Shown here piece by piece: positions 60,392 through 64,000 of a stretch of 64,000 nucleotides of DNA (the stretch's first letter is position 1; every line of letters starts with the position of its first letter). The DNA is from Trichococcus palustris (lineage in GTDB: Bacteria; Bacillota; Bacilli; Lactobacillales; Aerococcaceae): the NCBI RefSeq assembly GCF_900114465.1, contig NZ_FOTD01000003.1, positions 124,001 to 188,000 on the forward strand, given 5' to 3'. A model generated the notes under the pieces. It did not search any database. It was given only the letters and a program-made list of their open reading frames with translations, and was not told the DNA's origin. The translations under genes were made by a program, and so were the position numbers.

Positions 60392-60513
60392 ATTCGTCTT
60401 CAGGGCAGGGTGAAATTCCCGACCGGTGGTATAGTCCACGACCTCGTATTTCGATACGGGCTGAACTGGTGTAATTCCAGTACCGACAGTACAGTCTGGA
60501 TGGAAGAAGATGG
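60392..60513 (+). promoter_or_regulatory. FMN riboswitch (RFN element)
   Basis: The conserved RFN core is clear: TCTTCAGGGCAGGGTGAAAT, then TCCCGACCGGTGGTATAGTC, CACGA, ACTGGTGTAATTCCAGTACCGACAG and TCTGGATGGAAGAAGATGG closing the outer stem. It lies 130 bases upstream of the riboflavin transporter gene. The expression platform is not obvious. GGGCTCTTTTC...GAAAGAGACCC (60581-60606) is a hairpin before the ribosome site, without a T run, so translational control is as likely as termination. Confidence 0.97.
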
Positions 60514-60642
60514 GGTTTCTTTGAATAGCTTATTCGAGGGCTCTATTTTTATCTATCCATTTTGCGGAGGATAAGAATAGGGCTCTTTTCTATTGAAAGA
60601 GACCCATCTCTGAGATGAAATCAACAGGGAGGATTTATTATT

Positions 60643-61218
60643 ATGCAACAGAACAAAACTAAAAAAATGGTGGGCATTTCACTGTTTGGAGCACTTGCTT
60701 TCGTATTGATGTTTATCGCTTTTCCGGTCATCCCGGCATTCTCGTATTTGAAAATTGACTTCAGCGATCTACCCATTTTGCTTTCATTTTTCCTTTATGG
60801 TCCAGCAGGCGGCATCATTTCAGCACTGATTCGTTCCATTTTACATTACCTTCAAACAGGCGGCGATATGGGTTACCCAATCGGCGATGCTGCTGGCTTC
60901 TTGGCAACACTGGCTTATACCTTGCCGGTATATTACTTATTGCAAAAATCTAAAACAAAAGCAGGCGTTATCCTATCCTTGCTTGCCGGCACAATCGTAT
61001 TGACCGTCGTCTTGTCTGTAGCCAATTGGTATGTCTTCACACCTTTGTACATGAACCTTTTAAACTTCCAAATGGGACCAATAAAAGAGTTGGTATTGGC
61101 GGGAATCTTGCCATTCAACATAATCAAAGGATTGGTCATCAGCGCTGTCATCCTGCTGGTTATGCCAAAGCTGAAACCATGGCTTACACATCAAAATATT
61201 AAGTTAACATATAAATAA
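60643..61218 (+). CDS. ribU: Riboflavin ECF transporter S component RibU
   Basis: A 191-residue membrane protein with about five to six helices, the substrate-binding subunit of an energy-coupling-factor importer. The N-terminal basic stretch and GISLFGALAFVLMF helix carry the ECF S-component interaction surface, and FSDLPILLSFFLYGPAGG is typical of RibU. The FMN riboswitch upstream confirms the ligand. The EcfA, EcfA' and EcfT subunits are not in the window and are usually shared. GGGAGGA precedes the ATG. Confidence 0.95.
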   Translation: MQQNKTKKMVGISLFGALAFVLMFIAFPVIPAFSYLKIDFSDLPILLSFFLYGPAGGIISALIRSILHYLQTGGDMGYPIGDAAGFLATLAYTLPVYYLLQKSKTKAGVILSLLAGTIVLTVVLSVANWYVFTPLYMNLLNFQMGPIKELVLAGILPFNIIKGLVISAVILLVMPKLKPWLTHQNIKLTYK

Positions 61219-61591: not shown

Positions 61592-62746
61592 CTATTTCAA
61601 GTTGTTTAGTTTGTCCACGATATCCCGCGTCATGTTCTTCGTAACGTGTGTATATATTTCCAACGTGACCTTCGGATCAGAATGGCCAACTCTTTCCATG
61701 ATGGCCTTCACTGGGATGCCCAACTCTGACAAGATGGAGATATGGCTATGTCTGAAAACGTGCGTCGAAATCTCCTTTTGGATCCCCATGTCAATCATCA
61801 CTTTCTTCAGGTGGTAATTGATTATGCTGTGCAAGATAGGCGTTCCTTTCGGCATGGCGAAGATATAACCTTTATCATCATAATCCGGATACTCTGATTT
61901 GTATAGTTCATTCTCCGATTCGAATAACCGGATGATTTCAATGGCCCGATCCGACAAGGCTACCATGCGATAAGCCGCTGCCGTCTTGGGGGTGCTGATG
62001 TATGCATCGGCAACAGAATTCGTATCGGTGGCATAGGTGCCGGATACTTTCACGCAGCCATCGATAATATCGGATGCCCGCAATATATTCGTTTCGCCAA
62101 TCCGCAAGCCAGTCAATGACATAAACTCGCACAGACGCGAATAACGGACGTTGTAGCGTGACAACCCATAGAGGCAGGTTTCCAATTCATCATGATCTAG
62201 GAATTTGTTGCTTATTTTTTCGCGCTCCGACATCGTGATCGGTTTCTTTTTCAGTTCGACATCCGAAACGGGGTTATACAGACAGTAGTTGCGTTTCTTT
62301 GCGTATTTGAAGATTTGGTTAACCATTGATTTTATGTTTCTGACGGTATCGAAGCCGTAGTTCTTTTCGTAATAGATCATTTCGAAATAGTCCTGCAGCG
62401 TGCCGGTATCGATTTTGGAAACCAACGCTTCTTTAGGGAAGTTATTCATTACTAACGAGAAATATCTTCTTTGCGTTTTTCCGGTCGATGCCTTCACAGT
62501 CTGCAGATACTTTGGAAACCATTCGTTGGCCACATCTTCAAAAGTGATATTCATCCCGGCTTTCGTCAGGCTGAAATTCTTGAGGAATTTTTGATTCTTT
62601 TCGTCCAGCATCCGCTTGGCTTCTTTTTGAGCACGGGAGCTTTTGCTGGTTAGGGTGACGGAAAACTTCTTTGTTTTCCCGAACAGTTCGTTTTCATAGC
62701 GTTCGAAGAATTTGTATTTCCCGTTCGGTAGTTCTTCCATCCACAT
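61592..62746 (-). CDS. int: Phage/island-type tyrosine integrase
   Basis: This 384-residue site-specific recombinase inserts and excises a mobile element. It has an AP2-like/arm-binding N-terminus (about 1-60), a SAM-like core-binding domain (about 65-165) and a catalytic domain with R215 (LTGLRIGE), H329-x-x-R332 (HVFRHSH), a GHSDPKVT histidine box and nucleophile Y365. The gene reads toward fer and ends 88 bases from it, so the element's left boundary is next to the fer start. AGGAG lies ten bases before the ATG. The element continues to the right beyond the window; only int and an abi gene are seen. Confidence 0.92.
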   Translation of the reverse strand: MWMEELPNGKYKFFERYENELFGKTKKFSVTLTSKSSRAQKEAKRMLDEKNQKFLKNFSLTKAGMNITFEDVANEWFPKYLQTVKASTGKTQRRYFSLVMNNFPKEALVSKIDTGTLQDYFEMIYYEKNYGFDTVRNIKSMVNQIFKYAKKRNYCLYNPVSDVELKKKPITMSEREKISNKFLDHDELETCLYGLSRYNVRYSRLCEFMSLTGLRIGETNILRASDIIDGCVKVSGTYATDTNSVADAYISTPKTAAAYRMVALSDRAIEIIRLFESENELYKSEYPDYDDKGYIFAMPKGTPILHSIINYHLKKVMIDMGIQKEISTHVFRHSHISILSELGIPVKAIMERVGHSDPKVTLEIYTHVTKNMTRDIVDKLNNLK

Positions 62747-62763: not shown

Positions 62764-62858
62764 CTGTTATAATAGGGCGTAACAAATCGCTCTATTTATG
62801 GGCGTTTTTTTGGAAACACCACTTTCGCTTTGGTCGGGGAGAGTGGTGTTTTTATTTT
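62764..62858 (+). promoter_or_regulatory. Plus-strand promoter followed by two hairpin terminators between int and abi
   Basis: TGT-TATAAT (about 62764-62772) is an extended -10 on the plus strand. It is followed by CGCTC-TATTTAT-GGGCG-TTTTTTT, and then AACACCACT...AGTGGTGTT with TTTTATTTT (62815-62858). Together they could make a very short untranslated RNA opposing the int and abi genes. The second hairpin may simply end abi transcription from the other side, although its T run points to the plus strand. Confidence 0.4.
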
Positions 62859-63859
62859 GCGTACAACTCTTCAATGTAAGTAAAAATCCTTGTCATAGTG
62901 TTTTCTGGTATGTTTAAGATTTGATAAATATTTTTTCCATTGATCAATTTATTAGGTTCATATGTTTCAGAATCAATATAAGGAAGTAATGATACCAGTA
63001 ATTCTTGGACGAAATTACTTAGTACAACCTCGTCAAAAGTGTATTTAAGAATTAGTATGATTACTGTGTATAAATCTTTAAAGCCAAAGCCATTATCTAT
63101 ATCACTTTGTGTAAGCAATGTCGTTCCAAAAAACTGTAAGCTGTTACCAGGAGAAATATAATGCTTAATTTTTTCTTTGAAGTTCCTTTTTCCGTGAGCG
63201 GCGATGTTTCGATAGTCTCTTAAGAAATTCATGGAGTAATACAGAAAATCCGCATGGCCTCTTTCTGGTAATTCGGAGTTGTTGAAGTAGTCTGTTAAAA
63301 TCATCTGTTTAAAGTCATAAGGTAAAATTTCGAACCATGAAATTGTATTGAAAAAGGATATGTCATTCACAACAATCCAAGGAGGGATATTAGCTTTATT
63401 TTCCTTATAGTAATAGGTAACGGAACCTTGTTTGCAATTCCTGATGCAATCATCTAAATCACGCAAAGTACTTCCTCTCAGGCGCCGGCTATCAAGATAC
63501 AAACCTCTTTTTAGATAACTATTATCACCAGTGTTTTCTACGCCGAATGTATTAGCAACAACATAGGAAACGCGTGTTCGTAGTCCGCGTTCAATGAAGA
63601 GGATATATTTAAATATTAAACTACTAATATTCGTATCTATATAATATGCTACTGAAAAATCTTCAAAACAAGTTCCGTCTATCATAATGTCGGTTTCACC
63701 AGGCTTTAGAAATAGATGTTTATAACCGTTGATTAAGGTGTAATAAGAATGATTTTTAAGTGAATTAATAGTAAAGTCTTCCGATATAATATCGATGTTT
63801 TTCTCTTGTATTTTTACAAGTTGTTCTTCAAATGACTTGAAAGGAATATTGTCTGACAT
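62852..63859 (-). CDS. Abi_2/AbiF-like abortive infection protein with HEPN motif
   Basis: A 335-residue protein of the Abi_2 (AbiD/AbiF) family of phage defence. Recognisable segments include an early FKSFEEQLVKIQEKNIDI and LKNHSYYTLINGYKHLF, the central IERGLRTRVSYVVANTFG, and RDYRNIAAHGKRNF. The last gives the HEPN ribonuclease signature R217-x4-H222. HEPN proteins usually act as RNases that stop growth of infected cells. The gene is clearly more AT-rich than the chromosome around it and lies behind an integrase, indicating recent transfer. Its ribosome site is inside the hairpin of the RNA directly upstream. The RNase activity is inferred, not shown. Confidence 0.82.
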   Translation of the reverse strand: MSDNIPFKSFEEQLVKIQEKNIDIISEDFTINSLKNHSYYTLINGYKHLFLKPGETDIMIDGTCFEDFSVAYYIDTNISSLIFKYILFIERGLRTRVSYVVANTFGVENTGDNSYLKRGLYLDSRRLRGSTLRDLDDCIRNCKQGSVTYYYKENKANIPPWIVVNDISFFNTISWFEILPYDFKQMILTDYFNNSELPERGHADFLYYSMNFLRDYRNIAAHGKRNFKEKIKHYISPGNSLQFFGTTLLTQSDIDNGFGFKDLYTVIILILKYTFDEVVLSNFVQELLVSLLPYIDSETYEPNKLINGKNIYQILNIPENTMTRIFTYIEELYAK

Positions 63860-63927
63860 AAAAAAACGGAGCCTCCCTATCTTTCGATAAGAAAACTCCG
63901 TACCAACTTCCCGTTGGCGTTTCAGTT
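63860..63927 (-). ncRNA. Structured RNA upstream of abi (abiF-type motif candidate) ending in a terminator
   Basis: Reading the minus strand, the promoter at 63962-63934 predicts a start near 63927. The RNA then folds CCAAC-GGGAA-GTTGG (63917-63903). Next comes an outer stem CGGAG (63900-63896) with CTCCG (63871-63867) around CTTATC-GAAA-GATAGG, closed by U7 (63866-63860) that touches the abi ATG. This is an intrinsic terminator with GNRA-type inner loop. The only ribosome site for abi, GGGAGG (63877-63872), is inside it. An RNA motif associated with abiF genes is known in Firmicutes; I believe this is a member, but I could not compare it with a covariance model. Confidence 0.6.
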
Positions 63928-63933
63928 AAGTTT

Positions 63934-63962
63934 ATCTTATCGAAGTATTTTGAAACTGTCAA
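63934..63962 (-). promoter_or_regulatory. Strong promoter of the abi-associated RNA
   Basis: On the minus strand TTGACA (63962-63957), a 17-base spacer and TAAGAT (63939-63934) form a near-consensus promoter. The -10 overlaps TTCGATAAG, which is the inverted copy of CTTATCGAA in the hairpin downstream. Confidence 0.75.
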
Positions 63963-64000
63963 CTAATTTTGTTTTTTACTGGATCCCCAATTGAAATCAA

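Follow-up and report, generated by a model that had tools for sequence, protein, structure and literature searches.

A candidate read-through switch between the promoter of a short RNA and the terminator preceding a prophage Abi_2 gene

In the window analysed here, a stretch of 64,000 nucleotides from Trichococcus palustris, an Abi_2 gene is preceded by a short structured RNA whose terminator is complementary to the -10 region of the RNA's own promoter. The best explanation, to which we assign a probability of roughly 0.6, is that the short RNA is terminated and the toxin gene translation-locked, and that read-through from upstream would carry the -10 region as an antiterminator and permit toxin production. 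The parts of this arrangement, their covariation among loci, the link with an upstream gene read in the same direction (gene X) and the boundary at the predicted start are present in the sequences themselves; antitermination by the -10 segment is what we infer from them. The analysis was computational, and transcription start sites are those predicted throughout. The features of the locus, in window coordinates, are as follows.

61592..62746, minus strand: tyrosine-type integrase, the next gene downstream of abi (profile search)
62852..63859, minus strand: abi, encoding an Abi_2/HEPN (AbiD/AbiF-type) protein of 335 aa (Pfam, PADLOC, fold)
63860..63927, minus strand: short structured RNA of ~68 nt, predicted start ~63927, end in the U tract (fold; covariance model)
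63860..63866, minus strand: U7 tract, abutting the abi ATG (sequence)
63866..63901, minus strand: terminator hairpin of 16 pairs, with the abi Shine-Dalgarno in its 3' arm (fold)
63872..63878, minus strand: Shine-Dalgarno AGGGAGG (scored as GGAGG), 12 nt from the ATG and within the 3' arm of the terminator
63883..63892, minus strand: terminator 5' arm/loop segment TCTTATCGAA, exact complement of the -10 region
63902..63918, minus strand: hairpin 1, GCCAAC-GGGAA-GUUGGU (fold; covariation in 28 homologues)
63934..63962, minus strand: promoter TTGACA-17-TAAGAT (promoter scan)
63935..63944, minus strand: -10 region segment TTCGATAAGA, proposed antiterminator if transcribed from upstream
63959..64000, minus strand: 3' end of gene X, FlgT_C-like, 131 aa, continuing to 64354 beyond the window (sequence search)

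The near-consensus promoter on which the original prediction rested is real, and its support comes from comparison among loci. TTGACA-17-TAAGAT agrees with the consensus at 10/12 positions and is one of two such sites in a 4-kb scan; the scan found 10 sites in total against 10.3 in shuffles, no excess, so that the lone site is not significant and support was taken from other loci. A best -35/-10 pair scoring at least 10, in which 60-140 nt separate the -10 box from the ATG, was present in 190/218 Abi_2 loci compared with 21.2/218 shuffled upstream regions. The 218 loci include near-duplicates and have 182 distinct upstream regions. After removal of the 28 without a promoter score of at least 10 at 60-140 nt, and of 80 of the remaining 190 that were at least 60% identical to a retained one, 110 representatives remained, mutually <60% identical, of which 37 carry gene X in the upstream flank and 73 do not.

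The short RNA that had been proposed to span about 65 bases and to end in U7 at the abi ATG also stands, at ~68 nt. The RNA from 63930 to 63860 folds at -30.9 kcal/mol (z -6.6), a stability reached by 0/200 shuffles. A covariance model built from 28 loci with gene X (9/37 X loci were excluded) matches the window RNA at 63861-63927 with 41.2 bits, the window locus being itself part of the model. Covariation in homologues, a check proposed together with the original prediction, was found for hairpin 1, which has 8 pairs with compensatory changes in 6. Of its cells, 88.8% pair versus 73.0% in shuffles, 3/5 measures beat shuffles (0/500 for each), and 0/500 shuffles reach its covariation score; the two measures not above shuffles are double-change pairs (6 vs 4.8, 96/500) and further pair types (20 vs 18.3, 100/500). 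The model carries over weakly to other loci, reaching at E<=1 6/73 loci that lack X, in the same sense as abi, together with one antisense match, and 1/9 X loci outside its training set.

The proposed search with the Rfam abiF model (RF03085) gave no match to the window at E<=10. Among 34 homologue loci scanned, two matches were obtained (L015 and L063), both below the gathering score; that in L015 (1268-1304, plus strand, 30.1 bits) lies beyond the abi 3' end on the opposite strand. Similarly, no tandem repeats were found in 63840-64000, and the tandem-repeat antitoxin RNA that defines ToxIN-like type III systems is thus absent from this interval. The general part of the suggested RNA-controlled toxin, a short RNA and terminator before a toxin gene as in AbiD1 and AbiF/RCd22, is supported. 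The short RNA may be an antitoxin, an idea which agrees with known AbiF/RCd22 biology.

Assignment of the protein to the Abi_2 HEPN family was borne out. The abi product matches Pfam Abi_2 at E 5.6e-28 (98.9 bits, cut-off 25.6) and PADLOC AbiD at 1.1e-32. The HEPN motif is R-x4-H, and R217, N218 and H222 are invariant in 31 aligned sequences. An AlphaFold2 model (mean pLDDT 93.3) had 8vz6 (AbiF:ncRNA) as its sole PDB match below 0.001, at E 5.3e-7, compared with E 0.041 from sequence alone. AbiD and AbiF have been placed in the HEPN group (PMC3710099) and AbiF has been linked with Cas13 (PMC12373285, PMC12737573), according to the accessible parts of these papers. By family, the protein is probably an RNase, and an effect of the locus on phage may be expected on the same analogy.

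The original prediction joined gene, RNA and integrase into a compact mobile cassette, and its range stopped at 63962, excluding gene X (63959-64354). Besides this gene, it overlooked that the terminator contains a Shine-Dalgarno and that promoter and terminator are complementary. The order on the minus strand is gene X, short RNA, abi, integrase. Past the window edge the same strand carries, beyond gene X, a bPH_3-SHOCT protein and then two ORFs that by eye encode a zinc-ribbon protein and a repressor of HTH plus S24 type, and phage-like ORFs lie beyond the repressor on the other strand. Judged from these repressor-side genes, the phage-like ORFs and the integrase after abi, the locus closes a prophage lysogeny module and does not form an integrase cassette of its own. 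The identical Abi protein with its preceding 200 nt occurs in a 35-kb viral contig, possibly from the same genome; single-protein searches returned no relative among genome contigs and only the same prophage among viral contigs. In the prophage (L226:3472-4657, minus strand), the bPH_3-SHOCT gene and the zinc-ribbon gene (by eye) lie between repressor and X.

Gene X matches Pfam FlgT_C at E 2.5e-4, below the cut-off, and phrog_27728, to which no function is assigned there. Its structural model (pLDDT 89) gave as first PDB matches an 8z5n chain (LPHT-ring, 5.9e-4) and FlgT 3w1e (2.1e-3), with modest TM-scores. It is present in the upstream flank in 59/218 loci and 37/110 representatives; in the 37 loci it ends 9 to 46 nt from the -10 box, and its stop codon falls within the -35 box in 16/37, including the window, where TGA sits inside TTGACA. 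Among 395 genomes of the order, X was found in 13 and adjoins abi in 9 of them; in the other four, no Abi match was found within the retrieved locus. In the phage collection X occurs in three records, each beside an Abi match, and the three rank highest among the 45 Abi records. On the Abi tree X is clustered (8 changes against a shuffled mean of 31) but falls into 13 separate pure groups, of which the largest has 19 loci with support 0.645. A promoter of its own was not detected above shuffled sequence (9.52 vs 9.21, 35 loci), and the preceding ORF is co-directional in 32/35 loci; L005 and L089, where the X ORF was called short, were omitted from both counts. Ten co-directional ORFs before X were scanned and gave two S24 repressors, three IrrE-type proteins, one HTH, one T5orf172, one PH-SHOCT and two without a match.

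Data from the window alone do not decide whether the promoter-terminator complementarity is meaningful: dinucleotide shuffling of the RNA reproduces its 10 nt in 4/5000 cases, and among 36 other RNAs there is one with an 11-nt match to the window promoter. The complementarity was first spotted by eye in several loci, and each promoter was then paired with every other locus's RNA, a permutation among loci that retains the composition of each segment and by which composition was rejected as the cause. Across the 110 loci the -10 window gave z 13.3, compared with z -0.8 to 2.2 in windows from -110 to -30; the -10 window of the X split, subset and later-locus tests was chosen after this 110-locus test. 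In the 37 X loci the mean longest complement was 8.35 nt versus 5.25 nt permuted (z 15, 0/20000 permutations), at least 8 nt being reached in 21/37, whereas the 73 loci without X gave z 1.5. The signal persisted when the loci seen first were removed (n=28, z 12.4) and at <40% identity (n=11, z 6.3). Among loci without X, those in which a different co-directional ORF lies near the promoter gave z 3.8 (n=7), and no signal (z 0.2) came from the other 66, where no co-directional ORF of at least 80 codons ends near the promoter.

Seven X loci retrieved later gave z 3.7 (18/20000 permutations), omitting L273, which is 70% identical to L075 and scores 9.9, and L307, assumed kin of L289, which scores 4.6. 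Among 18 later loci, 7/9 with X and 3/9 without scored at least 7.5 when the wide window was used. By scored alignment in the narrow window, at least 7.5 was obtained in 28/37 X loci against 11.4% off-diagonal, and in 10/73 loci without X against 3.8% off-diagonal (z 2.5); X loci without a match of 7.5 number 6/37 in the wide and 9/37 in the narrow window. In 12-nt steps the signal spans the -10 region and stops at the predicted start, with z -2.0 to -2.7 just past it. Control windows from -120 to -30 in X loci gave z between -0.8 and 3.3, with an unexplained maximum at -100. The match lies mainly on the 5' side of the hairpin in 29/31 loci (exceptions L006 and L031), and a Shine-Dalgarno lies in a 3' arm in 31/37 X loci compared with 20/73 without X. 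One segment has two mutually exclusive pairings, both kept by covariation, as is characteristic of a cis terminator/antiterminator switch. A direct repeat, with the promoter copied from the terminator 3' arm, was also considered and rejected (control z 1.1).

Some single loci show related features. L303, without X, has an exact promoter-terminator complement of 9 nt, its nearest co-directional ORF ending 156 nt before the -10 box; L304, also without X, has a complement of 11 nt with one mismatch, and the corresponding ORF ends 85 nt before the box. In phage phiC2, related to the C. difficile locus (L241:2970-3175), a 12-nt AT-rich complement joins a stretch upstream of the RNA to the segment between terminator and ribosome site, but the promoter pick lies 203 nt before the ATG and the published start 168 nt, so it carries no conclusion.

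The -10 segment is absent from the short RNA and present in transcripts that pass through X, and its partner lies, in 29/31 loci, mainly in the 5' side of the hairpin; together with the Shine-Dalgarno in the 3' arm of most X loci, this suggests a read-through switch. According to our model, transcription from the internal promoter would yield an RNA of ~68 nt halted at the terminator, the 3' arm of which would also conceal the toxin Shine-Dalgarno, and antitoxin would be made while toxin stays scarce. Transcripts of the upstream operon running through gene X would include the -10 region as RNA, which would pair with the terminator 5' arm and loop during synthesis, leading to less termination and an exposed ribosome site. 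Toxin mRNA would then be made and translated, and the toxin would be coupled to transcription of the lysogeny operon.

Folding calculations make a co-transcriptional switch plausible and do not predict a stable one. When the RNA was cut at the match end, its own promoter segment gained 11.5 kcal/mol versus 4.8 for swapped segments (z -15.9, in 31 loci picked for their match). In the nascent long RNA the alternative helix formed in 30/31 loci, the competing 3' arm being absent by construction. Once the RNA was complete, leaving the antiterminator unformed improved the fold by 2.3 to 16.2 kcal/mol in 27/31 loci; the complete RNA favours the terminator, and hence the switch would need to be kinetic. 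In L293-L297 the ribosome site appears, by eye, to lie apart from the hairpin, and only antitermination could act there.

The same complementarity, and the same association with a co-directional upstream gene, would be expected if the short RNA acted in trans, its 5'-arm segment pairing, with or without bound Abi, with the -10-derived part of the X-abi mRNA and marking or silencing the toxin message. RCd22 is described as working in both cis and trans (accessible parts of PMC12373285), which lends this reading some credit. We nevertheless hold it unlikely: a cis partner ~45 nt away should win, and the segment is largely buried in the 16-pair stem of the short RNA. Moreover, RCd22 has its major 3' end at a point upstream of the terminator (PMC12373285, in the parts available), so the mature RNA may be without the segment.

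Location of the match over the -10 element could also mean that the RNA represses its own promoter by pairing with the non-template DNA strand there. Promoters score alike whether X is present (11.69) or not (11.71), but the signal is gone where no close co-directional upstream ORF exists, and such repression appears improbable. Equally improbable in our view is that the -10 segment forms a structural stem of an antitoxin processed out of the long transcript. The long-range helix would indeed enclose hairpin 1, but a promoter-like pair in 190/218 loci against 21.2 shuffled speaks against this reading, as does the short AbiD1 transcript reported to start at the internal promoter (accessible text of PMC2661086).

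With a slim chance of being right, the RNA segment could be a natural guide, by which the HEPN protein would recognise the X-abi read-through mRNA through pairing and sense transcription of the lysogeny operon. If true, RNA-guided control would exist here in a self-directed, pre-CRISPR form, within a family thought ancestral to Cas13. Least probable is a plain AbiF-type attenuator with a chance match in the window, for which the single-locus shuffles (10 nt in 4/5000) and the 11-nt match among 36 other RNAs could be cited, but against which the family-wide permutation tests stand.

The read-through switch would extend a scheme already published in outline for AbiD1 and AbiF/RCd22, namely a short RNA, a terminator and scarce toxin mRNA (PMC2661086, PMC12373285, accessible parts of both). 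The C. difficile AbiF/RCd22 locus, as far as its account is available, likewise lies in a prophage and combines an Abi_2 toxin and its read-through mRNA with a promoter, a short RNA and a Rho-independent terminator, and RCd22 RNA neutralises the AbiF toxin; it differs in having two abiF motifs (RF03085), a separate ribosome site past the terminator and a lysis module, and no mention of gene X was found in the available parts of that account (PMC12373285). L. lactis AbiD1, according to the accessible parts of its description, shares a short RNA (50 bases) that stops at a terminator directly ahead of the gene, little toxin mRNA and a ribosome site predicted to be sequestered, but it is plasmid-borne, its ribosome site is hidden by a stem right after the terminator instead of by the terminator, and phage Orf1 activates its translation (PMC2661086). 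The PbAbiF:ncRNA complex (PDB 8vz6) shares the protein fold and an RNA partner, with 15% identity in structural alignment. Rfam RF03085 shares the association with abiF genes and differs in stem plan and sequence.

Leader attenuators form exclusive terminator and antiterminator folds, and their alternative helices control termination and ribosome access. In the switch proposed here, by contrast, the part of antiterminator would be played by the -10 region of the internal promoter, present only in upstream transcripts. In the open-access papers searched and consulted, no mention of gene X or of promoter-terminator pairing was found, and no open-access paper was found on FlgT together with 'Abi family protein'. 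What appears new is the complementarity in X loci between the -10 region and, mostly, the terminator 5' arm. Its covariation points to a concrete cis switch in which one element would serve twice, as -10 box of the antitoxin promoter and, once transcribed, as antiterminator; the choice of antitoxin or toxin would then depend on which promoter fired. In addition, a conserved third gene, X, is added to a sizeable group of Abi loci, and the toxin is tied to genes of the prophage lysogeny module.

Minor observations concern the surroundings of abi and of X. Elsewhere in the window, an FMN riboswitch (60392-60515, plus strand, 119.5 bits) lies upstream of an ECF-transporter substrate-binding gene (60643-61218). 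In L239 and L240, loci with no Abi match, X homologues, one with an internal stop, stand beside a lipoprotein-like gene (by eye). In L242 (1500-2600), an X homologue without an Abi match is followed by a different ORF resembling a defence effector (by eye), and X may accordingly serve further systems.
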